Of a DNA stretch of 33,910 bases, positions 1-14,204 are shown piece by piece. A program made the position numbers and the translations under genes. The first letter of the stretch is position 1. Each line of letters starts with the position of its first letter. The stretch lies in the NCBI GenBank assembly GCA_021813725.1, contig JAKAJN010000006.1, positions 26,880 to 60,789 on the forward strand, given 5' to 3'. The notes under the pieces were generated by a model, which saw only the letters and a program-made list of their open reading frames with translations, was not told where the DNA came from and made no database searches. This DNA comes from a bacterium. Its GTDB lineage: Bacteria; Gemmatimonadota; Gemmatimonadetes; Gemmatimonadales; Gemmatimonadaceae.

Positions 1-1
1 C

Positions 2-391
2 TTCGCTGCATGGCTCCTGTGGCGTCGCACGAGGGTACTTGGCTGCGCAATCGCCCCAACTTGGGACTGCGGGTACGCGGCGCCGTCGGCGCGCATGCAG
101 TATACGGCCGGCTCATTTGCCGGCATCGTCACTGAATGGTTTGCCTTCATACTGCGCCCGGAGACTCACGCCGAGCGGCCCACGACCTTGATGCCGCCCG
201 CCGCCAGTCACACCACACACACGCCCGAGACGGTGCTCGACCGGATCGTCGAGCCGATCAGCACGCTCGTCCTGCAGGGAGCGGTGGCGGCGCGACGGTT
301 GCAGCATGGCCGCGTACACGCGTATCTCGCGTACCTTCTGATCGGCGTCGCGCTGCTCTCGGCTGTGGTGCTGGGGGGCGGCCGGTCGTGA
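2..391 (+). CDS. HyfB/NuoL-like antiporter-type membrane subunit, C-terminal part only
   Basis: The frame is open from the window edge to a TGA at 389-391, so only the last ~129 residues are seen. They match, almost motif for motif, the end of the complete HyfB-like protein at 1172-3121: both have WDCGY followed by a SARMQY/TARMQY block, then SFAGIVT, PETVL and ARRLQHG, and both end in a final hydrophobic helix. In this family (HyfB/HycC, related to NuoL and Mrp antiporter subunits) the protein is an ion-translocating subunit of a membrane-bound hydrogenase-type complex. The C-terminal piece would hold the lateral-helix end and last membrane segment. It is the first visible gene of the Ehr operon. 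It is cut by the window, not truncated biologically as far as can be seen. Confidence 0.85.
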   Translation, partial: FAAWLLWRRTRVLGCAIAPTWDCGYAAPSARMQYTAGSFAGIVTEWFAFILRPETHAERPTTLMPPAASHTTHTPETVLDRIVEPISTLVLQGAVAARRLQHGRVHAYLAYLLIGVALLSAVVLGGGRS

Positions 392-467: not shown

Positions 468-1175
468 ATGTTTCTGAATCTCGTCCAGATCGCCGAGTCC
501 TTTGGCGTGTCCGAGGGCGTCGTGGAAGGGTGGATTCGCGACGAGGGACTGCCGCACACGCGCGATCGCGGCCGGTTGCTGTTTGACCGTGCGCAGGTGG
601 CGCAGTGGGCGGCCAATCGCGGGTTGTCGTCGCAGGCCGGGTTCCTGGCGCCGGAGCATTCCGTCTTCGCCACCGGTATCCGCCTCGAGCCGTTGCTGCG
701 CACGGGTGGCATCTGGCGCGACGTGGCGCCGGAGGATGTGGGCAACGTGTTCGATCGGGTGGTGTCGGCGCTGCCACGCACCACGGCCTCCGTTCGCCAA
801 CTACTGGCGCAACGTCTGCGTGCCCCCGGCGGTGTCACACCGGCGCCGGTGGGGGGCGGTTTTGCCGTGCCGCACCCGAGCGCACGGATTGCGCTGGGCC
901 GCGATGCCGGCACCGTAGCGCTCGTCTTTCTGCGCGATCACTTCGCGATGCCCGAGCCGCCCGCTGACGGCGTGCCGGTGACGCGGCTGTTCTTCTTCGT
1001 TGCGCCTTCGCCGCGCGCGCACCTCGACCTGCTCGGTCGGCTCGGGCGGTTGCTGCGCAGTGGACCGTCGCGTGACGCACTGACCGAGGGCGCGACCGAC
1101 GAGGAGATCTTTCGCGTGATGGCCGCGCTGGACGAGGAACTCGCCGGCGTGGCGACCAAGGGGCCAACGCCGTGA
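468..1175 (+). CDS. Helix-turn-helix / PTS EIIA-like fusion protein in the Ehr operon
   Basis: This 235-residue protein has two parts. Residues ~3-50 look like an excisionase/MerR-type helix-turn-helix (LVQIAESFGVSEGVVEGWIR, then a GRLLFDRAQVAQW wing). Residues ~75-230 resemble a PTS EIIA type-2 (fructose/Ntr) domain. The phospho-histidine motif GGGFAVPHPSAR is present with His136 in the expected place, so phosphorylation is plausible. The gene sits between two HyfB-like genes. It starts 76 nt after the first, and its TGA overlaps the GTG start of the second by 4 nt (GTGA, 1172-1175), so it is translated with the complex. I infer a regulator or phosphorylation-dependent sensor tied to the complex. 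No other PTS gene is adjacent, and the DNA target is unknown. The fold assignments are good; the role is speculative. Confidence 0.75.
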   Translation: MFLNLVQIAESFGVSEGVVEGWIRDEGLPHTRDRGRLLFDRAQVAQWAANRGLSSQAGFLAPEHSVFATGIRLEPLLRTGGIWRDVAPEDVGNVFDRVVSALPRTTASVRQLLAQRLRAPGGVTPAPVGGGFAVPHPSARIALGRDAGTVALVFLRDHFAMPEPPADGVPVTRLFFFVAPSPRAHLDLLGRLGRLLRSGPSRDALTEGATDEEIFRVMAALDEELAGVATKGPTP

Positions 1176-3121
1176 GGGCCGGACCGTGGCTCGTGCTCGC
1201 ACTGGCGGCACTCACGCTTTCGGCGGTGGCGGGTCGCCGCTGGCCGCGCACGTGGCTGGTGCTCATCGTGGCCGGAGGTGCCGCGGCAGCGGCGGCGTCG
1301 GTGCTCGTGCTGTCCGGCGCGCCAGGTTGGGAGTGGCGCGGTGCGTTCCGCATTGGCGGTGAAGCGCTGCACCTGCGCCTCGACGCGCTGAGCGCGGTGT
1401 TCCTCGCACTCGTGGGCGTGCTCGGCGGCGCCGGGGCGGTGTACGCCCACGGCTACTGGTCCGACGCACAGTACCCCGCTTCGGCGCCGCGTGGGCGAGC
1501 GTGGTGGAGCGTGCTGGTGCTCAGCATGACGCTGGTGCTGACGCTCTCCAACGGCTTGCACTTTCTGGTGGCGTGGGAGTCGTTCGCCATCGCGGCGTTC
1601 TTCCTGATCACGCTCGATGGCGGAGCGCGGGCCGTGCGATCGGCGGGCTGGCTGTACCTCGCTGCGTCGCACGCGGGCACGCTGGCGCTGTTTGCGTTCT
1701 TCGCGCTGCTGTCCGCACGTACGGGGAGCTGGGACTTGGGGCCGATGAACGCTCAGGCCGCGCTGGCGCCGCTCTTCTGGCTGGCGTTGTTCGGATTCGG
1801 GGTGAAGGCGGGGCTGTTCCCGCTGCACGTGTGGCTGCCGTCGGCGCACGCCAACGCGCCGAGCCACGTGTCGGCCATCATGTCGGGCGCGGCGATCAAG
1901 ATGGGCGTCTATGGCATCCTGCGCTTTAGCGGTTGGTTGCCGGTGCCAAACGCGGCGGGCTGGGTGGTGATCGGCTTCGGCGCGGTGAGCGCGCTGCTTG
2001 GTATCGCGTTCGCGTTCGCGCAGGGGGACCTCAAGCGGCTGCTGGCGTATTGCTCGGTGGAAAACGTGGGAATCATCCTCGTGGGCGTGGGCGGGGCGAT
2101 GCTCGCGAGCACCGCGGGCGATGCGGTGTGGGGCCGCTTGCTGCTGGCTGGCGCGCTGCTGCACGTGTGGAATCACGGACTGTTCAAGGGCCTGCTGTTC
2201 ATGGGGGCGGGCTCAGTGCTGCACGCCACCGGCACGCGCGAGCTGAGCCGGCTGGGCGGCCTCTGGCGTCGCCTGCCGTGGACGAGCCTGATGTTCGCCG
2301 TCGGAGTGCTGGCCGTCGCCGGATTGCCGCCCTTGAACGGATTCGTGAGTGAGTGGCTGGTCTATCTTGGGCTGTTCGATGCAGTGACGAGTCGCGGGCC
2401 GTCCGCGTGGGCCGCGATTTTCGCGGCGCTCCTGCTCGGCACCGCGGGCGCACTGGCGTTGGCGAGTTTCGTGAAGGTGGGTGCCACGGTCTTCCTGGGC
2501 GCGCCGCGCGGACCTGCCGCGGCGAAGGCGCACGAAAGTGGGCGCGCGATGCTGGCACCGATGGGCGCGCTGGCCGCCCTCTGTGTGACGCTGGGCCTGG
2601 CGCCGACGCTGGCGTGGCCGGCGATTGCGCGAGGCGTGGCGGCCTGGCATCCGGCATGGCCGGCAACCGCGGCGCCACTCGCGCTGCAAGCCATCGGCGG
2701 GGCCCAGCTCGCGCTGGCGACGTTGTTGATCGCGGGCGCCATCGTCGCGTGGCATCAGTGGCGCGGGAAGCTGGCGCGTCGCGCCCTCACGTGGGACTGT
2801 GGCTACGCCGTGCCGACGGCCCGCATGCAATACTCGAGTGCGTCGTTCGCTGGCATCGTGACCGGCTGGTTCCGCTGGATCCTGTGGCCGCGGCTCGCTC
2901 TGCGCCGTCCACGCGGGCTCCTGCCCGCGCGTGCGCTCCGGTTGGAGCGGATCCCCGAGACCGTGCTCGAGCTGGTGATCGCTCCGGTGGGTGCGCTGTT
3001 CCTGCAGACGGCCAGCGGTGCGCGCCGCCTGCAGCACGGAAGCCTGCAGGCGTACATCCTCTATGTCGTGGTGGCTCTGGCGGCCCTGGGCGCGATGGTG
3101 CTCGAGGCGGGTGCGCGATGA
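1172..3121 (+). CDS. hyfB: HyfB/NuoL-like proton-conducting membrane subunit
   Basis: This is a 649-residue, very hydrophobic protein of the NuoL/HyfB/Mrp antiporter-like family. Visible family marks are a core lysine helix followed by FPLHVWLPSAHANAPSHVSA (around residues 213-235), the AAIKMGVYG helix, a half-channel helix with NHGLFKGLLFM, and PPLNGFVSEW. These correspond to the ion-pathway lysines and histidines of complex I antiporter subunits. The C-terminal ~100 residues repeat the tail of the gene ending at 391. The GTG start at 1172 overlaps the previous stop (GTGA), and the stop overlaps the next start (ATGA, 3118-3121). Its role would be ion translocation coupled to electron transfer in the soluble arm encoded downstream. 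HyfB/HycC is the closest family; Mrp-type MrpA/MrpD is a less likely alternative given the neighbours. Confidence 0.9.
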   Translation: MRAGPWLVLALAALTLSAVAGRRWPRTWLVLIVAGGAAAAAASVLVLSGAPGWEWRGAFRIGGEALHLRLDALSAVFLALVGVLGGAGAVYAHGYWSDAQYPASAPRGRAWWSVLVLSMTLVLTLSNGLHFLVAWESFAIAAFFLITLDGGARAVRSAGWLYLAASHAGTLALFAFFALLSARTGSWDLGPMNAQAALAPLFWLALFGFGVKAGLFPLHVWLPSAHANAPSHVSAIMSGAAIKMGVYGILRFSGWLPVPNAAGWVVIGFGAVSALLGIAFAFAQGDLKRLLAYCSVENVGIILVGVGGAMLASTAGDAVWGRLLLAGALLHVWNHGLFKGLLFMGAGSVLHATGTRELSRLGGLWRRLPWTSLMFAVGVLAVAGLPPLNGFVSEWLVYLGLFDAVTSRGPSAWAAIFAALLLGTAGALALASFVKVGATVFLGAPRGPAAAKAHESGRAMLAPMGALAALCVTLGLAPTLAWPAIARGVAAWHPAWPATAAPLALQAIGGAQLALATLLIAGAIVAWHQWRGKLARRALTWDCGYAVPTARMQYSSASFAGIVTGWFRWILWPRLALRRPRGLLPARALRLERIPETVLELVIAPVGALFLQTASGARRLQHGSLQAYILYVVVALAALGAMVLEAGAR

Positions 3122-4023
3122 TGATCGTCCTTGGGTTCGTCCTGCGACTTGCACTCTGGTTGCTGCTCGCCCCGCTCCTGCCTGGCCTCATCAACAAGGT
3201 GAAGGCGTGGGTGGCGGGACGGCGCGGGCCGCCCGTGCTGCAGCTCTACTACGACCTCGCGCGACTCTGGCACAAGCAGGTGGTGATGAGTACGCTGGCG
3301 TCTCCGGCGTTCATCATCGGGCCGGCAGTCGCGTGGGTGGCCGTGCTGGCCGCGACGCTGCTCGTGCCGCTCGGGCCGGCCGGCGCGACGCTCAGCTTCC
3401 GCGGTGACGTGATCCTGATGCTGTATCTCCTGGCGCTCGCGCGGTTCGCGACCACCTGGGCCGCCATGGAAACCGGTTCGGCGTTCGAGGGAATGGGAGC
3501 GGCGCGCGAGGTGAGTTTTGCCGTGCTCGCCGAGGCGGCGATGATTGCGGCGATGCTGACACTGGCGGTGCAGACGGGAAGCGTGTCGCTCGCTACGATG
3601 CTGGCGCCGTCGGTCGGGACGAGTGCGGTGCTGCTCGCGGCGGGACTGTTCACGGTGCTGCTCGTCGAGAACTGCCGCGTACCGTTCGATGATCCGGCCA
3701 CGCACCTCGAGTTGACGATGATCCACGAGGTGATGGTGCTCGATCACAGCGGCCCGCCGCTGGCGGCCATCCTGCACGGCGCCTCGCTCAAGCTGCTGCT
3801 CTTCGCCGTGCTGCTCACGCAGGCGGTGCTGCCGATGGGCACGTATTCCCCGGCGGTGGCGGCCGCCGTGCTGCTGACGGGCGTGCTCGTGGTAACAGTG
3901 GGCGTCGGGGCAGTGGAGTCGCTGATGGCGCGATTCTCGTTCCGGCGAGTGCCGTTGCTGCTCACGACCGCCGTGCTCCTGTGCGTCTTCGCCCTGCTCG
4001 TGGCGTGGCAGGGGGCCGCCTGA
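3118..4023 (+). CDS. hyfC: HyfC/NuoH-like membrane anchor subunit
   Basis: This 301-residue integral membrane protein belongs to the respiratory-chain NADH dehydrogenase subunit 1 / HycD-HyfC family. Near the N-terminus is the loop GPPVLQLYYDLARLWHK. The diagnostic acidic loop ENCRVPFDDPATHLELTMIH follows about two thirds along; in this family it links quinone- or cluster-proximal chemistry to the ion pathway. The start is the ATG at 3118, whose ATGA overlaps the previous stop; a second ATG directly follows at 3121. The same frame stays open upstream inside hyfB, but that stretch is arginine-rich shadow sequence and not part of the protein. The gene anchors the soluble arm to the membrane arm. 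Confidence 0.92.
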   Translation: MMIVLGFVLRLALWLLLAPLLPGLINKVKAWVAGRRGPPVLQLYYDLARLWHKQVVMSTLASPAFIIGPAVAWVAVLAATLLVPLGPAGATLSFRGDVILMLYLLALARFATTWAAMETGSAFEGMGAAREVSFAVLAEAAMIAAMLTLAVQTGSVSLATMLAPSVGTSAVLLAAGLFTVLLVENCRVPFDDPATHLELTMIHEVMVLDHSGPPLAAILHGASLKLLLFAVLLTQAVLPMGTYSPAVAAAVLLTGVLVVTVGVGAVESLMARFSFRRVPLLLTTAVLLCVFALLVAWQGAA

Positions 4024-4661
4024 TGCGCGACCTGAACCTTCTCATCGGGTTGGCGATGGGGCTGAACCTCGTCGCGCTCGGGAGCAGCCGCCTGCCGTCC
4101 ATCATTCGCGCCACGGCGCTGCAGGGAGTGCTACTGGGCATCATGCCGCTGGTGCTCGAGCACGACATCGGCTGGCAGGTAGTTGCGGTGGCGGTTGCCA
4201 CCGCTCTCGGCAAGGGCGTGGTGATTCCCGGGCTCCTGCAGCGGGCGATGCGCGCGGCGCACATCGAGCGCGAGATCGAGCCGTTCATCGGCTTCGTGCC
4301 GTCGCTCCTGCTTGGCGCGCTGGGCACCATCGCGGCGCTCGCCGTGGCGCGATCGCTGCCGCTGCTGCCCGAGCACGCCAAGTCGCTACTCGTCCCCGGC
4401 GCCCTCGCGTCCATGCTCACCGGGTTCGTCCTGCTCATCGGCCGCGTGAAGGCCATCTCGCAGGTCTGCGGCTACCTGATCTTCGAGAACGGCATCTACC
4501 TCTTCGGCCTTCTCCTCATCGGCTCGACGCCCCTGCTGGTGGAAGCCGGGGTGCTCCTTGACCTGACCGTGGGCATCTTCGTCATCGGCATCATCGTGGA
4601 CCGCATCCAGCGGGCCTTCGATTCGCTCGACACCCGCAAGCTGACGGTGCTGCGCGAATGA
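4023..4661 (+). CDS. hyfE: HyfE/NuoK-like membrane subunit
   Basis: This 212-residue hydrophobic protein resembles HyfE, the extended NuoK-like subunit of group 4 hydrogenase complexes. It has alternating membrane helices, the motif YLIFENGIYLFGLLLIG (around residues 153-169) with an intramembrane glutamate, and a typical amphipathic end (IVDRIQRAFDSLDTRKLTVL). The ATG at 4023 shares one base with the preceding stop (TGATG), and the end overlaps the next start by 4 nt. In complex I and its relatives this subunit carries membrane-embedded glutamates of the ion path. HyfE is a better fit than short NuoK/MrpC because of the length and the ENGIYL motif. Confidence 0.88.
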   Translation: MRDLNLLIGLAMGLNLVALGSSRLPSIIRATALQGVLLGIMPLVLEHDIGWQVVAVAVATALGKGVVIPGLLQRAMRAAHIEREIEPFIGFVPSLLLGALGTIAALAVARSLPLLPEHAKSLLVPGALASMLTGFVLLIGRVKAISQVCGYLIFENGIYLFGLLLIGSTPLLVEAGVLLDLTVGIFVIGIIVDRIQRAFDSLDTRKLTVLRE

Positions 4662-6100
4662 GGGCGCTCCTGCTGATCATCGTGCCGCTGGCCGGCGCGC
4701 TCGTCGCCGCCCTGTGGCGGAGCGACCGCAGTCGGCCGTGGCTGCTGCCCGCCGTTGGCACCGTGCACCTGGCGCTGTCGATCTGGCTGCTTGCGCAGCC
4801 GCCGGTGGTTGCGCCGGCGGCGTGGATGGGATTCGATCCGGTGGCGCGCGCCGTGCTGCCGCTGGTGTCGCTGCTGTTCTTTGCCTGTTCGATCTACGCC
4901 GTCGCCTACCTGCGCCTGCGACACGAACGCGGCAACCGCGTGTTTGTGGCGACGCTGCTTGCGGTCATTGGCCTGCTCAGCGCCGGACACCAGGCGCGGC
5001 ACCTCGGCGTGCTGTGGATCGCCACCGAGGCCGTGACACTGGCGGCCGTGCCGCTGCTGCATTTCAATGGCACGCCGCGAGCGTTTGAGGCGACGTGGAA
5101 GTACCTGCTGGTCGGCGGCACCGGCATTGCGCTCTCCCTACTGGGTTCGTTCTGCCTGGGCTATGCGTCGATGCACGGCGGTGGGAGCGGCGACCTCACG
5201 TTCGTGGCGCTCGCCGCGCAAGGCGCCGCGTTGTCGCGGCCGTGGGTGCTCATCGCCTGGGTTCTGCTGCTCGCGGGATACGGCACCAAGATGGGGCTGG
5301 CGCCGATGCACACCTGGAAGCCCGACGCGTACGGCGAGGCGCCGGGCATCGTCGGCGCCCTGCTGGCCGGTGGCGTCACGACGGTGGCGTTCACCGCACT
5401 CCTGCGCGTTCGTGCCGTGGTGGGAGCCGCAGGGGAGGGCGCAACGGCGGACCGAACGTTGCTGGCCATCGGGCTCTTTTCCATGGGCGTCGCCGCCCTC
5501 TTCCTGCTCGGCACGCGCAACTTCAAGCGCATGCTTGCCTACTCGAGCGTTGAGCACATGGGGATCTTGAGCATCGCGGCGTCGCTCGGGCCGGTCGGCG
5601 TCTTCGCCGCGCTGTTTCACGTGTGGAGCAACGGACTCACCAAGGGCGCCCTGTTCCTGAGCTCGGCCAACATCCGGCGCGCGGCGAACTCGGCGTCGAT
5701 CGACGAAGTGCGTGGCATGGCCGCGCTGACCCCGCGCTCGGCGATGATCTTCGTCGCCGGGTTGTTCGCCGTCACGGCGTCGCCGCCGTTCGGACCATTC
5801 TTCAGCGAACTGCTCGTGGTGCGCGCGGCGCTCGGGGCGGGGCACTACCTTGCCGTGCTCCTGTTCCTGGCATGCTTGCTGCTGGCGTTCTTCGGCTTGA
5901 GCCGCGTGGTGTTCGCGGTGGTGGATGGACGGCCGCGGCCCGCCACGGTGGCGAGCAGCCGACGGTTCGTCGAAACTGCCGGCGCCCTGTTGCCGCCCGC
6001 GCTCCTGCTGGGACTTTCCCTGTGGCTCGGACTCTTCACGCCGGACGCGCTGCGGGAGTCGTGGACCGCGGCGGCCGCCCAACTGTTCCCGGCCCCATGA
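4658..6100 (+). CDS. hyfF: HyfF/NuoN-like antiporter-type membrane subunit
   Basis: This 480-residue protein is another antiporter-like subunit, distinct from the HyfB-like ones. Characteristic stretches are YGTKMGLAPMHTWKPDAYGE (around residues 208-227), where HyfF has HTWKPDA, then SSVEHMGILS, HVWSNGLTKGALFL and SPPFGPFFSEL. The lysines in the TKMG and LTKG helices match the ion-path lysines of the family. The start codon overlaps the upstream stop (ATGA, 4658-4661), and the end overlaps the large-subunit start the same way. With the two HyfB-like proteins, this gives three antiporter-type subunits in one operon, one of which is only partly visible. Confidence 0.9.
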   Translation: MRALLLIIVPLAGALVAALWRSDRSRPWLLPAVGTVHLALSIWLLAQPPVVAPAAWMGFDPVARAVLPLVSLLFFACSIYAVAYLRLRHERGNRVFVATLLAVIGLLSAGHQARHLGVLWIATEAVTLAAVPLLHFNGTPRAFEATWKYLLVGGTGIALSLLGSFCLGYASMHGGGSGDLTFVALAAQGAALSRPWVLIAWVLLLAGYGTKMGLAPMHTWKPDAYGEAPGIVGALLAGGVTTVAFTALLRVRAVVGAAGEGATADRTLLAIGLFSMGVAALFLLGTRNFKRMLAYSSVEHMGILSIAASLGPVGVFAALFHVWSNGLTKGALFLSSANIRRAANSASIDEVRGMAALTPRSAMIFVAGLFAVTASPPFGPFFSELLVVRAALGAGHYLAVLLFLACLLLAFFGLSRVVFAVVDGRPRPATVASSRRFVETAGALLPPALLLGLSLWLGLFTPDALRESWTAAAAQLFPAP

Positions 6101-7584
6101 GCGGCGCCACCCTTCTTGCGCTGCTGCCCAACGCGACGTCGCTGCCGTGGCGTGACATTCCCGCGTGGCCGGCCTCGGAGTTCGTGCAGGTGACGGCGGC
6201 CGCGCTCGCCCGCGGAGCACGGCTCTGCAGCTGGTTCGCCGTGCCCGAGGAATCGGGTGACGCCGTGCAGCTCGTGGCCGTGCTGGCCTTCGATGCCGAC
6301 AATACGCTGGCGGTTGGGCGCAGCACCCCGGTGCGCGGGTCGTATCCCGCGCTCACCGTGCTGCACCCGCAGGCACATCTCTTCGAGCGCGAGGTGTGGG
6401 AGACGCACGGCCTGACTCCCGAGGGCCACCCGTGGCTCAAGCCCGTGCGTGCCTCGGCGGGAGAAGCCCCGGCGAATGCGCCGTTCTTCACGGTTGAGGG
6501 CGGCGAGATTCACGAGGTGGCCGTGGGACCCGTGCACGCGGGGATCATCGAACCCGGACATTTCCGGTTCCAGTGCGCGGGCGAGGAGGTGATCCATCTT
6601 GAGATCGCCCTCGGCTACCAGCACCGCGGGATCGAGCGGGCGCTGGCCGGAGGACCGCATCGGCGTACCCTGCGGCAGGTCGAGACGATCGCGGGTGACA
6701 CCACGGTGGCGCACGCCACCGCCTACGCGTCGGTGCTGGAGGCGCTGGGGAGCGGTGAGGCACCGCTGCGGGGGCAATGGCTGCGCGCCATCGGGCTCGA
6801 ACTCGAGCGGCTCGCGAATCACACCGGCGACCTCGGCGCACTGGCCGGCGACGTGGCCTTCATTCCCACCGCCGCTGCCTGTGGCAAGCTGCGCGGCGAT
6901 TTCCTGAACGTGACGGCCGCGCTCTGCGGCAACCGCTTTGGACGCGGCCTCGTGCGGCCGTTCGCCGAGGGCCCCGACGTCTCGGGCGCGCTCGTGCAGC
7001 AGGTGCTCGGCAACCTGACGCGCGCCCTCGCGGACGTCGAGCAGGCGATCGCGTGGCTGTGGGACTCGGCGTCGGTGCGGGCCCGTTTCGAGAATGTCGG
7101 CACCGTGCACCGGGCCCAGGCCGAGGAGATCGGGATGGTGGGCCCCGCCGCGCGGGCCTGCGGGCTGGTGCGCGATGTGCGATACGACCATCCGGCGGGC
7201 TGGCACCGGTTTGCTCAGGCGCCGGTGGCCGTCTGGCCGGGCGGCGACGTCTTCGCGCGGGCTCGCGTGCGTTCGCTCGAAATCCAGCGCTCAGGCGATT
7301 TCCTGCGCGAACAGCTTGTCGCGGCGCCCGAGTCTGGCCCGGCAGACGATTCGCCCGCCAGCACGGGCGACACCTTGGCCGTGGCGTTGGTGGAGGGGTG
7401 GCGGGGTGAGGTGTGCCACGTGGCCGTGACCGACGCCGCCGGGCGGTTCCGGCGGTACAAGATCACGGACCCGTCGTTCCACAACTGGTCGGGGCTTGCG
7501 TTGGCCCTGCGCGGCAATGCCATCTCCGATTTCCCGATCTGCAACAAGAGTTTCAGCCTGTCGTACTGCGGTTTCGATCTCTAA
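6097..7584 (+). CDS. Ehr large subunit: NuoC-NuoD/HycE-like fusion without Ni-Fe ligands
   Basis: This 495-residue protein has a NuoC (30 kDa)-like N-terminal domain with the signature FEREVWETHGLTPEGHP, joined to a NuoD/HycE-like large-subunit domain from about residue 140 (VGPVHAGIIEPGHFRF, then YQHRGIE). In active group 4 hydrogenases the first ligand motif is RVCGICxxAH. Here the aligned residues are ETIAGDTTVAH, with Ala199 and Thr202 in place of the cysteines. The second motif (DPCxxC) is replaced by SLSYCGFDL at the very C-terminus, with Ser489 and Gly492 at the ligand positions and one out-of-register Cys491. The protein therefore cannot hold the standard Ni-Fe centre. It also ends right after this motif, without the extra tail of HycE. 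ATG 6097 overlaps the hyfF stop. Homologues are called Ehr (energy-converting hydrogenase-related). The substrate is unknown. Confidence 0.9.
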   Translation: MSGATLLALLPNATSLPWRDIPAWPASEFVQVTAAALARGARLCSWFAVPEESGDAVQLVAVLAFDADNTLAVGRSTPVRGSYPALTVLHPQAHLFEREVWETHGLTPEGHPWLKPVRASAGEAPANAPFFTVEGGEIHEVAVGPVHAGIIEPGHFRFQCAGEEVIHLEIALGYQHRGIERALAGGPHRRTLRQVETIAGDTTVAHATAYASVLEALGSGEAPLRGQWLRAIGLELERLANHTGDLGALAGDVAFIPTAAACGKLRGDFLNVTAALCGNRFGRGLVRPFAEGPDVSGALVQQVLGNLTRALADVEQAIAWLWDSASVRARFENVGTVHRAQAEEIGMVGPAARACGLVRDVRYDHPAGWHRFAQAPVAVWPGGDVFARARVRSLEIQRSGDFLREQLVAAPESGPADDSPASTGDTLAVALVEGWRGEVCHVAVTDAAGRFRRYKITDPSFHNWSGLALALRGNAISDFPICNKSFSLSYCGFDL

Positions 7585-7599: not shown

Positions 7600-8445
7600 A
7601 TGTTTGTCGTCGACACCCTGTTGCACCGATTGAAGCGCGGCTGCGAGACCATGGCGTATCCCGACGGGCCCGCGCCGGCGCTCCCGGACCGCCACGGTGG
7701 CGCGTTGCGCGTGGAAAGTGCGCGGTGCGCCGCGGGGTGCGATGCCTGCATCGGCGTCTGTCCCACGGAGGCGATCACGCGCGTGAGTGGCCAGTCAGTC
7801 GCGCTTGACTTGGGCCGGTGCGTCTTCTGTGCCGCGTGCGTGACGGAATGTCCGACGGGAGCCATCACCCAGACCGGCGACCATCGCATGGCGGCGCGGC
7901 GACGCCAGGACTTGGTACTCGGCGCCCCGAATCACGCCGAAGTGCGGCTCGCCGGAGAGCTCGACGCGACCCTGCGACGGCTTTTTGGCCGGTCGTTGCG
8001 TCTGCGTCAGGTGAGCGCCGGCGGCTGCAACGCGTGCGAAGCCGACACCAATGTGCTGGGGACGATCGGCTGGGATCTCGGTCGATTCGGCATCCAGTTC
8101 GTGGCGTCCCCGCGCCATGCTGATGGCCTGCTGATTACCGGACCCGTCTCGCGCAACATGCAGCTGGCGCTCCGAAAGACCTGGGACGCGGTGCCCGAGC
8201 CGAAGATTGTGATCGCGGTCGGGGCCTGTGCCGTTTCGGGCGGGCTGTTTGCCGACCATCCGGAGGTGCATCCGGGGGCCGAGGCGGTGCTCCCGGTGGA
8301 CCTGCACATCCCTGGATGCCCGCCGCACCCGCTGACCATTCTCGACGGGTTGCTGCGCCTTCTGGGGCGCCTGGATGAGCGGCGGTTGCCGCCGGTCGCC
8401 GGCCGCTCCGAACGGGCCAACGGTAGTTTGCCCGACGCCGTTTAG
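7600..8445 (+). CDS. Ehr small subunit: 2x[4Fe-4S] ferredoxin fused to NuoB/HycG-like domain
   Basis: This 281-residue protein fuses two parts that are separate genes in E. coli Hyc/Hyf. Residues ~40-90 are a two-cluster ferredoxin with cysteines 43, 47, 50, 54 and 74, 77, 80, 84 (each group ending in CP). Residues ~130-265 are a NuoB/HycG-like small subunit that keeps the ligands of the proximal cluster: Cys143 and Cys146 (GGCNACEAD), Cys210 (VGACAVSGG) and Cys240 (PGCPPHP). All twelve expected iron-sulfur ligands are therefore present, in contrast to the large subunit. It follows the large subunit after a 15-nt gap and is the last gene of the operon. A role in electron entry from a soluble ferredoxin-like donor is inferred. 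Confidence 0.92.
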   Translation: MFVVDTLLHRLKRGCETMAYPDGPAPALPDRHGGALRVESARCAAGCDACIGVCPTEAITRVSGQSVALDLGRCVFCAACVTECPTGAITQTGDHRMAARRRQDLVLGAPNHAEVRLAGELDATLRRLFGRSLRLRQVSAGGCNACEADTNVLGTIGWDLGRFGIQFVASPRHADGLLITGPVSRNMQLALRKTWDAVPEPKIVIAVGACAVSGGLFADHPEVHPGAEAVLPVDLHIPGCPPHPLTILDGLLRLLGRLDERRLPPVAGRSERANGSLPDAV

Positions 8446-8487: not shown

Positions 8488-8529
8488 TAGGCGTTGTTCT
8501 TCCCTGAACATTCAACTTGCGATCAGACC

Positions 8530-9642
8530 ATGCGCATCGGCATTCCGAAGGAAATCAAGACCAACGAGAACCGCGTTTCCTGCGTCCCGGCTGGCGTGGA
8601 AGCGCTCGTGTCGGCAGGCCACACCGTCTACGTCGAGAAGTCGGCGGGCGAGGGGAGCGGATTCAGCGACGAGCAGTATGTCGCGGTCGGCGCCAAGATC
8701 CTCAACACGGCGGACGAGGTGTGGAAGGAAGCCGAGATGATCATCAAGGTGAAGGAACCGATCGCCCCCGAGTGGCCGCGCATGCGGAAGGGGCAGACGA
8801 TCTTCACGTACTTCCACTTTGCCGCGGACGAGAAGCTGACCAAGGCGCACATTGACTCGGGCGCGACCTGCATCGCGTACGAGACGGTGGAGATGGCCAA
8901 CGGCGACCTGCCGCTGCTGATCCCGATGTCGGAAGTCGCCGGACGGATGGCGGTGCAGGAAGGCGCGAAGTACCTCGAGAAGCTCTACGGCGGGCTGGGC
9001 CTGCTGCTCGGCGGCGTGCCGGGCGTGGCGCCGGCGCACGTGGTGGTCCTCGGCGGCGGCATCGTGGGCATCAACGCGGCGAAGATGGCGGCGGGCATGG
9101 GCGCCAAGGTCACGATCCTCGACCTCTCGCTGCCGCGCCTGCGCTACCTGAGCGACGTGATGCCGGCGAACGTGACGCTGATCCACAGCAACCGCCACAA
9201 CATCCTCGAGCAGATCTCCACGGCCGACCTGGTGGTCGGCGGCGTGCTGATCCCGGGCGCCAAGGCGCCGAAGCTCATCCGCAAGGAAGACCTCAAGCTG
9301 ATGAAGAAGGGCTCGGTGATCGTTGACGTGGCCATCGACCAGGGCGGTTGCGTGGAGACGATCCATGCCACGACGCACGAAAACCCGGTGTACGTGGTGG
9401 ATGACGTGATCCACTACGGCGTGGCCAACATGCCGGGCGGCGTGCCGCGCACCTCGACGCTGGCGCTGACGAATGCGACGCTCCCGTACGCCCTCAAGCT
9501 GGCGAACAAGGGGTGGAAGCAGGCGCTCAAGGACGACCCGGCGCTCCTGAAGGGACTCAACGTTGTGGACGGCAAGGTCACGTACAAGGGCGTCGCCGAG
9601 GCGTTCGGCATCGAGTACCATGCGCCGGAGAAGTTTGTCTAG
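8530..9642 (+). CDS. ald: Alanine dehydrogenase
   Basis: This 370-residue protein matches the usual length for alanine dehydrogenase, the NAD-dependent enzyme that interconverts L-alanine and pyruvate plus ammonia. It begins [20 protein letters not shown], the typical AlaDH/PNT N-terminus. The nucleotide-binding loop [21 protein letters not shown] lies around residues 170-190. [13 protein letters not shown] and [16 protein letters not shown] follow as family signatures. I chose the ATG at 8530 because the family begins MRIGIPKE; an in-frame TTG at 8494 would add 12 unrelated residues. It stands alone between the Ehr operon and a strong terminator. It could help balance NADH, pyruvate and ammonia, but no link to Ehr is shown by sequence. 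Confidence 0.96.
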
Positions 9643-9898: not shown

Positions 9899-10942
9899 AT
9901 GCGCTGGAATCTTCCGTTCTTCAAGTCTGGCTCCCTGTTTCCGGCGAACGCGATTGCCGTTGACCTCGGCACGGCGAACACGCTCGTCTATGTGAAGGGC
10001 GAAGGCATCGTCCTCAACGAGCCGTCCGTCGTGGCGATGGATCGCGAGACGAAGAAGATCAAGGGCGTGGGACTCGAGGCGAAGCGCATGCTCGGGCGCA
10101 CGCCGGAGGGGATCACGGCGGTGCGGCCGATGAAGGACGGCGTCATCGCCGACTTCGACGTCACCGAGAAGATGCTGCGCTACTTCCTCGAGTTGATCAT
10201 CGAGAAGCACGTCTTTCGTGTGAAGCCGCGCGTGATCGTGTGCGTGCCGTCGGGCATCACCGAGGTGGAGAAGCGCGCCGTGCGCGATTCGGCGCTTGGC
10301 GCGGGCGCCAAGGAAGTGTTCATGGTGGCCGAGCCGATGGCGGCGGCGATTGGTGTCGGCCTGCCGGTGGAGACGCCGACGGGGAACATGGTGATTGACA
10401 TCGGCGGCGGCACGACGGAAATCGCGGTCATCGCATTGAGCGGCATCGTGAGCGATACGTCCATCCGCACTGGCGGCGATGAGATTGACACGAGCATCGT
10501 GCAATTCATGCGCTCGTCGTACAACCTGCTGATCGGCGAACCGACCGCGGAGATGATCAAGATCCAGGTGGGTTCGGCGGCACCGATGGGCGAGGAACGC
10601 GAGATGGAAGTGAAGGGGCGCGACCTCGTATCCGGCATTCCGAAGACCGTGCGCGTGCACAGCGCCGAGATTCGCGACGCGATGCAGCAGCCGATCCAGC
10701 AGATCGTGGACGCGGTGCGGCGCGCGCTGGAGATCACGCCTCCCGAACTGGCCAGCGACATCGTGGACCGCGGCATCGTGATGACCGGCGGCGGCGCGCT
10801 GATCCGTGGCCTCGACGTGCTCCTCACACAGGAGACGGGGCTGCCGATCCACGTTGACGAGGACCCGCTGACGTGCGTGGTGCGCGGCACGGGGCGCATC
10901 CTCGACGACGAAGAGAAGTACTGGTCGGTCCTCTCCACCTGA
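9899..10942 (+). CDS. mreB: Rod shape-determining protein MreB
   Basis: This 347-residue bacterial actin organises sidewall peptidoglycan synthesis as membrane-bound filaments. The phosphate-1 loop AVDLGTANTLVYVKGEGIV is near residues 20-38, the phosphate-2 region DIGGGTTEIAVIALSGIV is in the middle, and the adenosine-binding MTGGGALIRG is near residue 300. The N-terminus MRWNLPFFKSG precedes the actin fold. The length is normal. It opens the operon mreB-mreC-mreD-mrdA-rodA. mreC follows after only 6 nt. Confidence 0.98.
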   Translation: MRWNLPFFKSGSLFPANAIAVDLGTANTLVYVKGEGIVLNEPSVVAMDRETKKIKGVGLEAKRMLGRTPEGITAVRPMKDGVIADFDVTEKMLRYFLELIIEKHVFRVKPRVIVCVPSGITEVEKRAVRDSALGAGAKEVFMVAEPMAAAIGVGLPVETPTGNMVIDIGGGTTEIAVIALSGIVSDTSIRTGGDEIDTSIVQFMRSSYNLLIGEPTAEMIKIQVGSAAPMGEEREMEVKGRDLVSGIPKTVRVHSAEIRDAMQQPIQQIVDAVRRALEITPPELASDIVDRGIVMTGGGALIRGLDVLLTQETGLPIHVDEDPLTCVVRGTGRILDDEEKYWSVLST

Positions 10943-10948
10943 CGGACA

Positions 10949-11944
10949 GTGCCGCGTCCGGCACGCAGCTCCTCCCGCGCGGACCAGGCGATGCTCGTCG
11001 CCTGCGTGCTGCTCTCGCTGGCCGCCCTCGTGCTGCCGTCATCGCTCCGCTCGGCCATCGCCGGTGGCCTGCGCGGCACCGTGGTGGTGCCGCTGGCCGC
11101 CCTGCAGGAACGCGCCGAAGTGTCGCGGCGGGCGGTGCTGGCGTACGATGCCTCGGTGCGCGTGGCCGACAGCGTGCGCCTGCAGGCGACGCAGGCCGAG
11201 TCCGCCGCGCTCGAGAACGAGCGCCTGCGCCGCCTGCTTGGCCTCGGGGCGGCGCTGCGCTGGGGCTTCGTCCCCGCCGAGGCGCTGCACGGACGTGGGC
11301 TTGGCGACGATTACACGATGACGCTCAGCGTTGGCCGCAATGAGGGCGTGGAGCCGTTCAGTGCCGTCGTGGCGCCGGACGGCCTGGTGGGGATGATCGA
11401 GCGCACGGACGCGCGGTCGAGCGTGGCGATCGTCTGGCCGCATCCCGACTTCCGGGTGAGTGCGATGTCCGCCGACGGGTCGGTGTTCGGCATCGTCTAT
11501 CCGCACCTCGGCGCTGGCGCCACGCGGTTCCTGCTCGAGTTGCGCGGTGTGGCCTTTCGCAGTGCCCTGCGCCCGGGCACGCTCATCGTGAGCGCCGGCC
11601 TCGGCGGGGTCTACCCGCGCGGCATCCCTGTTGGCACCGTACTGCGCGAGATCAGCACCACCGAGGGATGGGCGCGCAGCTACCTGCTGCGCCCGGCGGT
11701 GCGCCCGGCCGATGCGCTCACGGTGATGGTGGTGCAGCCGCGGCGAGCCAAGGAAGGCATCGCGTCGGCCTGGCAGACGGCGGTGGACAGTGCGCTGAAG
11801 ACCGTCATCTCGGCGGGCGATTCGCTGGCGCGGCGTCGCGCCGACTCGCTCGCCACCGCGGAGCGTCAGCGGCTCGACTCGTTGCAGGCGCTCAAGCCAC
11901 GCCCCGATTCGGCGACGGCGATGCCGAGGCCGCCCGAGCGATGA
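10949..11944 (+). CDS. mreC: Rod shape-determining protein MreC
   Basis: This 331-residue protein has one N-terminal membrane segment (about residues 15-32), a coiled-coil-like stretch (about 50-95, rich in Ala, Glu and Arg), and a periplasmic beta domain including GRNEGVEPFSAVVAPDGLVG and GLGGVYPRGIPVGTV, both typical of MreC. MreC bridges MreB to PBP2 and activates wall synthesis. The last ~55 residues form a charged, repetitive tail (SLARRRADSLA and similar) beyond the usual fold. The GTG start is 6 nt after mreB, and the end overlaps mreD by ATGA. Confidence 0.93.
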   Translation: MPRPARSSSRADQAMLVACVLLSLAALVLPSSLRSAIAGGLRGTVVVPLAALQERAEVSRRAVLAYDASVRVADSVRLQATQAESAALENERLRRLLGLGAALRWGFVPAEALHGRGLGDDYTMTLSVGRNEGVEPFSAVVAPDGLVGMIERTDARSSVAIVWPHPDFRVSAMSADGSVFGIVYPHLGAGATRFLLELRGVAFRSALRPGTLIVSAGLGGVYPRGIPVGTVLREISTTEGWARSYLLRPAVRPADALTVMVVQPRRAKEGIASAWQTAVDSALKTVISAGDSLARRRADSLATAERQRLDSLQALKPRPDSATAMPRPPER

Positions 11945-12429
11945 ACGTCGCCCGCGGCCTCTGGTTTGCCTTGCTGGTGGCGGCACTCGTCGTGCTGCAC
12001 TACACGCTGCGCCCCGTGCTCGATTGGCGCGCCTCGGTGGATTTCCTCGCCATCGCCGTGCTCCTCGTTGCCGTGCGCGCGCGACCGGGCGTTGCGACGC
12101 TCGTCGGATTTGCCATCGGCCTGACGTCGGACGCGCTGATTCCGGCCGCGTTTGGCGCGGGCGCGCTGGCCTTCAGCCTGGTCGCGTACGCGGCTTCATC
12201 GCTGAAGGCGGCTTTCTTCGCCGACAACGTGGCGCTCAACGCGGTATTCGTCTTCCTTGGCAAGTGGGTCGCGGACTTGATCTTCCTCGCCGCGGAGCAC
12301 CGGCTGGGAGGCAGCGATTTTCTGGCGCAGGCGCTGTTGTGGTCGCCGCTGTCCGCCGCGGTGACGGCCGCCGTCGGTCTCCTCGTGTTCATGGCGGCGC
12401 GTCCCGTGATGGGGACGCCGCGGGGATGA
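11941..12429 (+). CDS. mreD: Rod shape-determining protein MreD
   Basis: This 162-residue, strongly hydrophobic protein has about five to six membrane segments and sits between mreC and mrdA, which is the position of mreD in the standard order. Features such as GFAIGLTSDALIPAAFGAGAL fit MreD, where a conserved loop of this kind (GLxxD) recurs. The ATG at 11941 overlaps the mreC stop by 4 nt, and its own stop overlaps mrdA by 4 nt. It would act as the small integral membrane component of the elongasome. The identification rests on topology and context as much as on motifs. Confidence 0.87.
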   Translation: MNVARGLWFALLVAALVVLHYTLRPVLDWRASVDFLAIAVLLVAVRARPGVATLVGFAIGLTSDALIPAAFGAGALAFSLVAYAASSLKAAFFADNVALNAVFVFLGKWVADLIFLAAEHRLGGSDFLAQALLWSPLSAAVTAAVGLLVFMAARPVMGTPRG

Positions 12430-14204
12430 GCTTCCATCCGAACGAGATGCAGCGTCGCGGGCGGCTGGCCTCTGCCGTCGCGTTTCTCGCGTTTGTCTTC
12501 CTCGTGGGTTCGTTCTTCCGCACGCAGGTGCTGCAGCACGCGCAGTATGTGCTGCAGTCGGAGGAGAACCGGCTGCGCGAGGTGCCGCTCCCCGCGCCGC
12601 GCGGTGTCATCTACGACCGAACCGGCCAAATCATCGCCGAGAACCTGCCCGGCTATTCGGTGTCGCTGCTCGCGCCGGGCGTCGACTCCTTGCGCGCCGC
12701 ACTGCGGCGTTTGTCGGGGACGATCCCGCTCTCACCGGAGCAGATGAACCAGGCGGTGCGCCGTTTTCGGCGCGCGCCCAACCGGCCGGCCGTGATCTTC
12801 CCGGACGCCTCATTCGACGTGGTGTCGGTGCTCGAGGAGCATCGCGTCGAATTCCCCGGGCTCATCATCCAGAGTTCGCCCAAGCGGTACTACCCCGACG
12901 GTCCCGCGATGGCCGCCTTCGTCGGCTACACAGGCGAGGTCAACGAAAGCGAACTGGCCAGCCCGGCGTTCGCGGGCTACAAGGCCGGCCAACAGGTGGG
13001 GAAGGACGGATTGGAGCGGCAGTACGAACCGCGGCTGCGCGGTCGAGAGGGGACGCGCTTCGTCGAGGTGGACGCGCGCGGCCGCGTCGTGCGCGAGGCC
13101 GGTGCGCGACAGGACCTGTTGCCGCAGGCGGCGCCGCCGCTCTACACCAACATTGACCTCGACCTGCAGAAGTACGTCGTGGCGCTCTTCGGCGATTCGC
13201 TCATTGGCGGCGTCGTGGCGCTCGAACCGAAGAGCGGGGCGGTGCTGGCCCTGCACTCGGCGCCGACGTTCGATCCCAACCGCTTCATCGGCGGCATTCC
13301 CGCCGACTACTGGCGCGCGCTCAACGATGACGGACGCCGGCCGCTCTACAACAAGGCCATCAAGGGGGCATACGCACCCGGCTCCACGTGGAAGCTGGCG
13401 ACGGCGGTGATGGCGATCGAGCAGGGGGTCGCCACCCTCGACGATCGCATGCCCGTGGCGTGCACCGGCGGGTACCAGTACGGCAACCGGCGCTTCAAGT
13501 GCTGGGACAAGAAGGGACACGGCAGTGTGACGCTCGCGCAGGCCATCGAGTTGTCGTGCGATGTCTACTTCTATCAACTCGGACTGAAAATCGGCCTGTC
13601 GCGGTTGGTGGCGGGGGGCGTGCAGATGCTCGCGCGCGAGCGTACCGGCATCGATTTGCCGGCGGAGACGCGCTCGACCTTTCCCACCGCCCCGGCCACG
13701 GAGTACTACAACCGGCGCTTCGGGCCGCGCGGGTGGAGCAACGCCGTGTCGCTCAACCTCGCCATTGGGCAGGGCGAGAACGCGCAGACAGTGGTGAACA
13801 TGGCGCGCTTCTACACTGCGCTGGCGACCGACGGCGCAGCCGCGCAGCCGCGCCTGCTCCGCGGAGCAGGGGAACGCACGCCGATGTTCCAGCTGACGGC
13901 AGAGCAGATGGATGGTGTGAAGAAGGCGCTGGCGGGCGTCGTGCAGCGCGGCACGGCGGCCGCGTCGCAGATCCGCGGCGTGATGCTGGCGGGGAAGACC
14001 GGCACGGCGCAGAACGCGCACGATCCGCTGCGCGACCACGCCTGGTTCGTCGGCTTCGCCCCGGCCAACGACGCCAAGATCGTCGTCGCCGTGATGCTCG
14101 AGTTCGGCGGGCACGGTACGCGCGCCGCGCGCATCGCGTCGAAGATCATCGAGCACTACCTCAAGGTGCAGACGACGCAGACGCTGAACACGGAGGGCGA
14201 TTGA
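12426..14204 (+). CDS. mrdA: Penicillin-binding protein 2 (elongasome transpeptidase)
   Basis: This 592-residue class B PBP cross-links peptidoglycan during elongation. A single membrane anchor lies at about residues 14-32, followed by the dimerisation/pedestal region with APRGVIYDRTGQIIAENLPG. The transpeptidase motifs are intact: the SxxK serine at Ser320 (GSTWK), Ser377 in SCD, and KTGT at 524-527. The start is ATG 12426, overlapping the mreD stop; an upstream open stretch in the same frame belongs to shadow sequence inside mreD. The stop overlaps the TTG start of rodA. The partner glycosyltransferase is RodA, encoded next. Confidence 0.96.
   Translation: MSFHPNEMQRRGRLASAVAFLAFVFLVGSFFRTQVLQHAQYVLQSEENRLREVPLPAPRGVIYDRTGQIIAENLPGYSVSLLAPGVDSLRAALRRLSGTIPLSPEQMNQAVRRFRRAPNRPAVIFPDASFDVVSVLEEHRVEFPGLIIQSSPKRYYPDGPAMAAFVGYTGEVNESELASPAFAGYKAGQQVGKDGLERQYEPRLRGREGTRFVEVDARGRVVREAGARQDLLPQAAPPLYTNIDLDLQKYVVALFGDSLIGGVVALEPKSGAVLALHSAPTFDPNRFIGGIPADYWRALNDDGRRPLYNKAIKGAYAPGSTWKLATAVMAIEQGVATLDDRMPVACTGGYQYGNRRFKCWDKKGHGSVTLAQAIELSCDVYFYQLGLKIGLSRLVAGGVQMLARERTGIDLPAETRSTFPTAPATEYYNRRFGPRGWSNAVSLNLAIGQGENAQTVVNMARFYTALATDGAAAQPRLLRGAGERTPMFQLTAEQMDGVKKALAGVVQRGTAAASQIRGVMLAGKTGTAQNAHDPLRDHAWFVGFAPANDAKIVVAVMLEFGGHGTRAARIASKIIEHYLKVQTTQTLNTEGD

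Follow-up and report, generated by a model that had tools for sequence, protein, structure and literature searches.

An Ech-hydrogenase-related complex from a member of the Gemmatimonadaceae with a conserved large-subunit pocket that has lost its Ni-Fe ligands

What can a hydrogenase-like complex do once the subunit that should hold its nickel and iron has lost the ligands for them? The question is raised by a 33,910-nucleotide stretch of DNA from a bacterium of the family Gemmatimonadaceae (hereafter the window; contig JAKAJN010000006.1 of assembly GCA_021813725.1; G+C content 68%; source genome 3.0 Mb in size and 94% complete), in which an operon encodes an Ech-hydrogenase-related (Ehr) complex, a type first described in Geobacter. 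All coordinates are window positions, with the Ehr genes on the plus strand. The large subunit, EhrL, is encoded by an open reading frame (ORF) at 6097–7584 that begins with an ATG at 6097 and specifies a fused NuoC/NuoD-like protein of 495 amino acids; the frame is open upstream as far as 5623, and the ATG shares 4 bases with the end of the gene before it, including that gene's stop codon. Both CxxC Ni-Fe motifs of the group 4 [NiFe] hydrogenases are missing from this protein. Pfam matched it to Complex1_49kDa (3.4e-24) and Complex1_30kDa (5.9e-6), and a scan of its own genome with the Ni-Fe hydrogenase model PF00374 reported two other hydrogenases and not EhrL.

A first-pass annotation, made from the letters of the window alone, had proposed this locus as the best candidate there for an undescribed energy-conserving system, related to Ehr complexes whose role was largely undefined. 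The system can no longer be called undescribed, since the Ehr family is named and the loss of its Ni-Fe ligands is already published (PMC6349859, PMC10284858, PMC7304191, PMC10432482; also PMC3569383). The remark on its role agrees with the literature, in that the passages of the first four of these papers available to us assign no function to Ehr. In our preferred reading, to which we give an even chance of being correct, Ehr would be a membrane ion pump that reduces a small acceptor, other than protons, in the former Ni-Fe cavity.

The four Ni-Fe ligand positions are occupied in the window by A199, T202, S489 and G492, exactly the residues that had been picked out by eye against Escherichia coli HycE. 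The leading PDB sequence matches of EhrL in phmmer, HycE (7z0s_E, E 5e-32) and Pyrococcus furiosus MbhL (6cfw_L, E 8e-29), place the first cysteine pair at 199/202; these alignments end just short of the second pair, and 489/492 were assigned by counting on. The register is not in doubt, because a relative from the same bacterial family that retains the four cysteines (locus L134) aligns without a gap at both motifs, with AERICGVCSVAH and NKSFELCYSC against VETIAGDTTVAH and NKSFSLSYCG in the window. We compared 88 EhrL sequences, comprising the window, 7 relatives from its order and 80 loci, the last being the best 80 of at least 555 GTDB contig matches found by two peptide patterns; the patterns were drawn from the Ehr family itself, and remote members are therefore unsampled. 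Position 199 is A in 82, S in 5 and C in 1 of these sequences, position 202 is T in 74, S in 10, A in 2, V in 1 and G in 1, and positions 489 and 492 are S and G, respectively, in all 88. The Ni-Fe site is thus abolished, as first proposed, with no cysteine at any of the four positions in 87/88 sequences (sole exception, L081). The ratio of nonsynonymous to synonymous substitution rates (dN/dS) of EhrL was 0.11 between the window and the 86%-identical locus L035, which identifies the ligand loss as a conserved trait under purifying selection and not as decay. The earlier argument against decay from the conserved surroundings is borne out by this ratio and by the conservation across the 88 sequences; two of the motifs it relied on, HRGIE and VGPVHAG, are partly common to complex I, so that their presence alone does not point to a hydrogenase.

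The window locus is a member of the known Ehr family. The operon contains NuoL-like, NuoH-like, HyfE-like, HyfF-like, EhrL and EhrS genes, and in quick trees of 33 hand-chosen EhrL, two NuoD and four hydrogenase rows (Geobacter sulfurreducens GSU0739-45 not among them), the EhrL rows formed one clade, including those of Geomonas limicola and Geobacter argillaceus, apart from the group 4 hydrogenases and NuoD (SH-aLRT 99 and 100). Geobacter Ehr resembles that of the window in its EhrA (NuoL-like), EhrC (HyfE-like), EhrL and EhrS types, according to the parts of PMC8691401 and PMC7894505 available, and in having lost the Ni-Fe cysteines; two loci from Geobacteraceae, L071 and L098, belong to the same clade of EhrL. 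In contrast to Geobacter, the window groups in a well-supported subclade with Verrucomicrobiota, one Planctomycetota and Desulfomicrobium, and has two NuoL-like genes, one on each side of a gene for a protein with helix-turn-helix and EIIA domains (HTH-EIIA). Among the matches listed, the nearest EhrL relatives bearing names were mostly Verrucomicrobiota, several of them Opitutia, which taken by themselves would suggest an Opitutales-like host, and Ehr has been noted in Verrucomicrobial methanotrophs (excerpt of PMC6688271).

The four-cysteine sister L134 (G155:C236, 4832–6445) connects this family to enzymes with an intact site. It shares with the window the gene order B-C-E-F-L-S, the HAGIIEPGHFRF and NKSF motifs and the lack of a C-terminal extension, and differs in keeping CGVC and CYSC, in having Pro where the window has Trp, and in being only about 36% identical. 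Compared with HycE and three relatives from group 4, it joined Ehr with an SH-aLRT of 98, in a tree that carries a long-branch warning and in which the hydrogenase rows cohere poorly (support 37). A second locus from the same bacterial family, L136 (G114:C238), has CGTC, its C-terminus running off the contig before motif 2, and the EhrL with four cysteines described for Desulfotomaculum ruminis (PMC3569383, in part) can be likened to these by description only. HypD went unmatched in the genome that carries L134, although that genome is 97% complete, an odd finding for a four-cysteine enzyme.

It is conceivable that EhrL is a hydrogenase, or holds some other metal, by means of substitute ligands, as the first-pass annotation had suggested looking for at residues 199, 202, 489 and 492. 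Alanine, threonine, serine and glycine are poor metal ligands, and W435 takes the place of a hydrogenase proline beside a conserved arginine, so that no new conserved ligand set emerges at these positions. Two cysteines close to motif 2 are common, C482 (85/88) and C491 (79/88), both off the ligand positions; C491 is replaced by Ala in 9 sequences and C482 by Asn in 3. A site built from C160, C262, C277 and C491 was also considered and rejected. The losses of C262, C277 and C491, and to some extent that of C160, coincide, but for the most part in rows that fall outside a single well-supported clade; and in the model one helix bears both C262 and C277, with a separation of 15 residues, or about 22 Å by helix rise, which is too far for one site. 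Matches to the maturation protein HypD, on which Fe(CN)2CO insertion in group 4 [NiFe] hydrogenases depends together with HypC, were somewhat commoner in genomes with Ehr (15/27, against 49/173 without it; p 0.007, uncorrected for kinship) among 200 genomes of the window's order, 27 of which carry Ehr; the window's own genome has such a match, and 12/27 Ehr genomes do not. We regard substitute ligands as the least probable of the explanations that we considered.

While the ligands have gone, the residues that deliver protons to the site in hydrogenases have been kept. Equivalences were taken from phmmer alignments and from passages of PMC11228991 and PMC9474812, with the PDB chain numbering of HycE inferred to be 12 off from the published numbering. 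E152 (MbhL E21/HycE E193, the proton donor) was found in 88/88 EhrL, H206 (H75) in 86/88, H242 (H284) in 88/88, R353 (R395) in 87/88, E395 (E437) in 88/88, R436 (R320/R478) in 88/88 and H441 (H325) in 87/88, and the pocket residues D201, N483, K484, S485, Y490 and D494 were each present in all 88. Other positions have changed consistently: the canopy Asp (HycE D529) has given way to N in 85 sequences and to S in the other 3, and the Pro preceding the catalytic Arg is Trp (W435) in 87/88, whereas L134 retains the Pro. Counted along the alignment, the complex I quinone residues His38 and Tyr87 (Thermus thermophilus Nqo4) correspond to I/V150 and G200. As read from sequence, then, the proton relay to the pocket is retained, and the contacts to the metal are gone, as are those known for quinone.

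An AlphaFold2 model of EhrL, built from 54 hand-chosen EhrL rows, had a mean pLDDT of 88.9 and a pTM of 0.92. Its best Foldseek match was HycE (7z0s_E, TMq 0.85), and it also matched the complex I NuoCD fold, so that the comparison called for by the first-pass annotation returned both relatives, the quinone His38/Tyr87 pair being absent by sequence. The formate hydrogenlyase HycE/HycG/HycD/HycC of E. coli is therefore the closest structural counterpart, with equivalents of E193, H284, E437, R395 and R478; unlike HycE, EhrL has none of the four Ni-Fe cysteines, has N/S for Asp529 and Trp for Pro, and stops where HycE continues into its C-terminal extension.

The resemblance to complex I, which extends to the fold, the loss of all four Ni-Fe cysteines and the logic of the membrane arm, raises the possibility that Ehr is a ferredoxin:menaquinone oxidoreductase with a quinone site of a different kind. 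The nearest complex relatives of Ehr reduce quinone, and E152 may stand in for His38, because Mbh E21 occupies the His38 place by structure (PMC11228991, in the passages available). We also searched for menaquinone genes in 50 of the 80 loci (L078–L127), whose genomes are of unstated completeness: PF02621 was matched in 29, MqnC in 30 and MenD above its cut-off in 3, so that 32/50 Ehr genomes had PF02621 or MenD. However, 18/50, including the isolate Rectinema subterraneum, had no match to PF02621, MqnC or over-cut-off MenD; MenD-model matches below the cut-off were scattered more or less at random over 29/50 genomes, some within these 18. Unlike complex I, EhrL has no His38/Tyr87 pair, its canopy Asp is N/S, and EhrS has C-x-x-C and not adjacent CC at its proximal cluster. 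We therefore regard menaquinone reduction as unlikely.

The electron path to the pocket would run through EhrS. By the ferredoxin fold, its cysteines presumably make up distal (C43/47/50/84), medial (C74/77/80/54) and proximal (C143/146/210/240) ligand sets, an assignment supported by the observation that cysteine losses largely follow these sets. The window EhrS has all 12 cysteines, that is, three full [4Fe-4S] ligand sets, and its proximal motif, C143-N-A-C146, has the hydrogenase-type C-x-x-C spacing; all four proximal cysteines were present in 72/77 EhrS rows. This spacing bears on the idea that Ehr is a sulfane-sulfur reductase of the MBS type, with catalysis at an under-ligated proximal cluster. 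Pyrococcus MBS likewise descends from a hydrogenase, has given up some of its Ni-Fe ligands and works in the same chamber (PMC7684303, as far as the available text goes), yet its proximal motif is three residues shorter, with one cysteine unbound, and it keeps two Ni-Fe cysteines and has no E21 equivalent, the opposite of Ehr with its invariant E152 and its lack of ligand cysteines in 87/88. A reductase of this type seems to us very unlikely.

Across the family the iron-sulfur wire is less uniform than in the window. We examined 96 readable EhrS, made up of the 77 rows minus the frameshifted L049 plus 20 more, one of them from the four-cysteine sister L134; sequences that were cut, had an inner stop or fell below 70% of the window length were excluded, and three later loci yielded no EhrS. 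All 12 cysteines were kept in 60/96, and two more lacked one distal cysteine. The distal set was lost (0 to 2 cysteines left) with at least three medial cysteines kept in 9/96, representing five changes on the tree. The medial set was lost in 21/96 (L036, L038, L039, L127, L135 and 16 of loci L138–L154), a single change with a support of 89; 17 of these also lacked the distal cluster, four kept 3 or 4 distal cysteines, and several carried the motif CLFSPEE in the old ferredoxin domain. Finally, 4/96 (L052, L053, L057 and L072) had lost two to four proximal cysteines, always with C240W, and kept the other eight, in two changes on the tree. The EhrS tree was a quick one, with 47/93 inner branches open.

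In the EhrL rows compared, these losses left little trace. Five medial-loss EhrL (L036, L038, L039, L041 and L127) had the same pocket as the window except for T/S at 202, S/N at 487 and C/A at 491, and none of the four proximal-loss EhrL differed at more than a single site from the 90% consensus, L057 having V202. The notion that a change at residue 202 or in the pocket tracks proximal loss was discarded, as unusual residues at 202 occurred in L057, L056, L078 and L037, of which only L057 has lost the proximal set. Four of six medial-loss loci scanned had no ferredoxin-like cysteine motif, and L039 and L127 had one chance-looking match each. Losses of single EhrS clusters next to a conserved EhrL pocket are new; a search of the open-licence literature, only partly aimed at these points and seen in part, found no report of EhrS cluster loss or of the HTH-EIIA link.

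In almost every locus of sufficient length the genes of the membrane arm stand beside EhrL, L102 (R-L-S-B-B) being an exception. The pump residues of the window HyfB are E136, K212, K243, K288, K339 and E394; among 92 sequences, E136 was conserved in 91, K243 in 89 and each of the other four in all 92, including lysines at two positions lost in E. coli HycC (K212 for L208, K288 for Q285). In HyfC, the E-channel residues E139 and E204 were found in 83/83 sequences and E131 and E184 in 82/83. The dN/dS values of six operon genes (window against L035) ranged from 0.095 to 0.18. The claim that a full ion-pumping arm is joined to an iron-sulfur path leading into the pocket therefore holds for the window, with its membrane arm and three ligand sets, but fails as a statement about the family, in which medial (21/96) or proximal (4/96) sets have been lost.

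We propose that the Ehr complex sits in the membrane and translocates ions, with EhrL as the subunit that carries its active site. A low-potential carrier, for which ferredoxin is our best guess, would feed electrons to the two N-terminal [4Fe-4S] clusters of EhrS, from where they may flow through the hydrogenase-type proximal cluster into the former Ni-Fe cavity, presumably open. There a small acceptor would be reduced with protons from E152, from H206, and from H242/E395/R353 by way of R436, and this redox step would power the E-channel of HyfC and the antiporter-like subunits, which are predicted to pump. The four-cysteine sister, the conservation of relay and pump residues, the full EhrS in 60/96, the 12/27 Ehr genomes without HypD, the dN/dS values and the co-occurrence of Ehr with ferredoxin-related genes speak for such a pump, and on balance they bring it to roughly even odds. 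As to the last of these, RnfC was found in 14/27 Ehr genomes of the order against 24/173 others (p 3e-5), and 2-oxoacid:ferredoxin oxidoreductase (OFOR) matches in 16/27 against 38/173 (p 2e-4), both uncorrected for kinship. In some genomes of the order, such as G112:C15 and G118:C4, OFOR-like genes are found within a few kb of RnfC.

Several observations weigh against a redox pump. None of the co-occurrence tests (HypD, RnfC, OFOR and, below, FdhA) allows for common descent; the OFOR search, run with a threshold of E 1e-30, admits other 2-oxoacid oxidoreductases, with 9/200 genomes above the model cut-off; and 9/27 Ehr genomes had no match to HypD, OFOR or RnfC at all, while HypD itself was commoner with Ehr. 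No conserved electron-donor gene was seen beside the operon in a scan of 46 chosen plus-strand ORFs near operon ends, out of 262 downstream ORFs (191 upstream ORFs were outside the scan), and no Pfam family occurred in more than 2/46 of them among the matches listed, which cover 25 of 78 families. The pocket loops 145–151 and 482–495 are of low confidence in the EhrL model, and the HycD E-channel glutamate E201 is His in 83/83 HyfC. To these must be added the medial and proximal losses, because relatives without those clusters cannot run the electron path as proposed.

The same losses suggest a quite different machine, in which the EhrL pocket and the ion arm form a ligand- or conformation-gated translocator or sensor and the Fe-S wire is a dwindling remnant. 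This proposal accommodates the 21/96 medial losses (17 also distal) and the four proximal losses in which the other eight cysteines remain, the pocket kept in the medial- and proximal-loss EhrL compared, the membrane-arm genes that accompany EhrL nearly everywhere, and the frequent HTH-EIIA gene. It accords less well with the 60/96 rows, the window included, that keep 12 cysteines, with the medial set retained in 9 distal-loss rows, and with a redox-site proton relay kept in 86 to 88 of 88; moreover, the medial-loss group would be accounted for by an electron donor on a protein of its own that docks close to the proximal cluster. We consider this decoupled machine rather unlikely. A historical version of it, equally doubtful in our judgement, is that Ehr, a machine of the complex I type, is leaving redox chemistry, the Ni-Fe site having been emptied first (a four-cysteine sister persists in the same bacterial family) and the distal, the medial and distal, or the proximal cluster then lost in separate lineages, with hardly any change in the EhrL pocket, the proton relay and the ion arm. 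What has been conserved would then be a pocket-gated translocator, frequently with a gene for a PtsN-like EIIA regulator beside it, and not a respiratory enzyme. For the window, we keep the redox pump as the first reading because its EhrS is fully wired, as are 60/96.

Formate offers another possible source of electrons. In a proposed FDH-Ehr complex, formate dehydrogenase would pass electrons to the pocket; such a complex was put forward for Riflemargulisbacteria and Saganbacteria (PMC6349859), and Ehr subunits were more abundant on formate in G. sulfurreducens (PMC7894505), both according to the parts of these papers available. One FdhA match in the genome of the window contains a TGA and falls short of the model cut-off. 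The frequency of FdhA-model matches was, however, not raised in Ehr genomes (17/27 against 113/173, p 0.83, uncorrected for kinship), at a cut-off of E 1e-150 that still admits other molybdenum enzymes, and no molybdopterin family was among the matches listed for the 46 downstream ORFs (25 families). A formate-linked complex is, in our estimation, still less probable than a sulfane reductase. In the same genome, contig C128 (G000:C128, ~51359–61080) carries a TGA-containing, probably selenocysteine-encoding, formate dehydrogenase-like gene and a CxxC Ni-Fe hydrogenase within 10 kb, and the second Ni-Fe hydrogenase lies on C74. Oxygen respiration was tried as a separating trait and proved uninformative, COX1 being present in 199/200 genomes of the order.

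The operon is arranged as HyfB - HTH/EIIA - HyfB - HyfC - HyfE - HyfF - EhrL - EhrS, with 4-base gene overlaps at four junctions (Table 1). The bulk of the first HyfB gene lies upstream of the window on the same contig, and the HyfE-like subunit probably starts at the ATG at 4023. The Hyf names derive from NCBIfam hydrogenase-4 matches that fall short of their model cut-offs.

Table 1. Features of the Ehr operon and the gene that follows it, in window positions.
Feature	Positions	Strand	Evidence
HyfB/NuoL-like antiporter subunit, copy 1, C-terminal end	1..391	+	tblastn of HyfB on L047 (overlaps window start); frame shared with ORF 95..391
HTH_17 and PtsN-type PTS_EIIA_2 regulator-like protein	468..1175	+	Pfam HTH_17 2.9e-6, PTS_EIIA_2 1.1e-6
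HyfB/NuoL-like antiporter subunit, copy 2	1172..3121	+	Pfam Proton_antipo_M 6.7e-44
HyfC/NuoH-like membrane anchor with E-channel residues	3118..4023	+	Pfam NADHdh 3.1e-27
HyfE-like membrane subunit	3981..4661	+	NCBIfam hydrogenase 4 membrane subunit (73.8 bits, under model cut-off 136; E 1.8e-20); no Pfam match
HyfF/NuoN-like antiporter subunit	4658..6100	+	Pfam Proton_antipo_M 1.2e-41; NCBIfam hydrogenase 4 subunit F, under cut-off
EhrL, hydrogenase-large-subunit/NuoCD-like, without Ni-Fe ligands	6097..7584	+	phmmer, 88-row alignment, Foldseek
E152 codon, equivalent to MbhL E21/HycE E193 (proton donor)	6550..6552	+	alignment; 88/88
A199-G200-D201-T202 replacing CGxC (motif 1)	6691..6702	+	alignments
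S487-L488-S489-Y490-C491-G492 replacing DPCxxC (motif 2)	7555..7572	+	alignments
EhrS, 2x[4Fe-4S] ferredoxin domain fused to NuoB/HycG-like domain	7600..8445	+	Pfam Fer4, Oxidored_q6 8.3e-27; 12 cluster Cys
Alanine dehydrogenase	8494..9642	+	Pfam AlaDh_PNT

Among 87 loci surveyed for the HTH-EIIA gene, 17 were too short upstream to judge; in the remaining 70 it stood beside the Ehr operon in 50 and was absent in 20. Two histidines of its product, H136 (51/53) and H185 (49/53), are both present in the window, and we take them to fit the phosphorylation pair of PtsN. The gene may thus tie Ehr to signalling through the nitrogen-related phosphotransferase system (PTS-Ntr). The alanine dehydrogenase gene after EhrS is probably not part of the complex; the nearest relative, L035, shows only a 29%-identical match after its operon. 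Beyond it, at 9899–14204, are mreB, mreC and a penicillin-binding protein gene.

Ehr genes occur in many bacterial phyla, and the function of Ehr is still reported as unknown (PMC10284858 and PMC10432482, in the sections available). The role of the Geobacter complex has been stated never to have been investigated (PMC7894505, in part), and a recent paper even terms the complex nonfunctional (PMC13194489, in part). Our data argue against that description for the Ehr family, because the pocket is under strong selection and a hydrogenase-like proton relay is kept around the empty site. What is new here is the proof of the ligand register, the retained relay, the finding that Ehr occurs partly apart from both HypD and menaquinone, and the family-wide survey in which losses of single clusters came to light. 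These results provide practical handles on the complex, namely a pair of relatives with four and with no ligand cysteines, a small set of pocket residues that do not vary, and naturally occurring variants that lack clusters. The variants without one or two Fe-S clusters could show whether a pump of the complex I type needs an electron wire.

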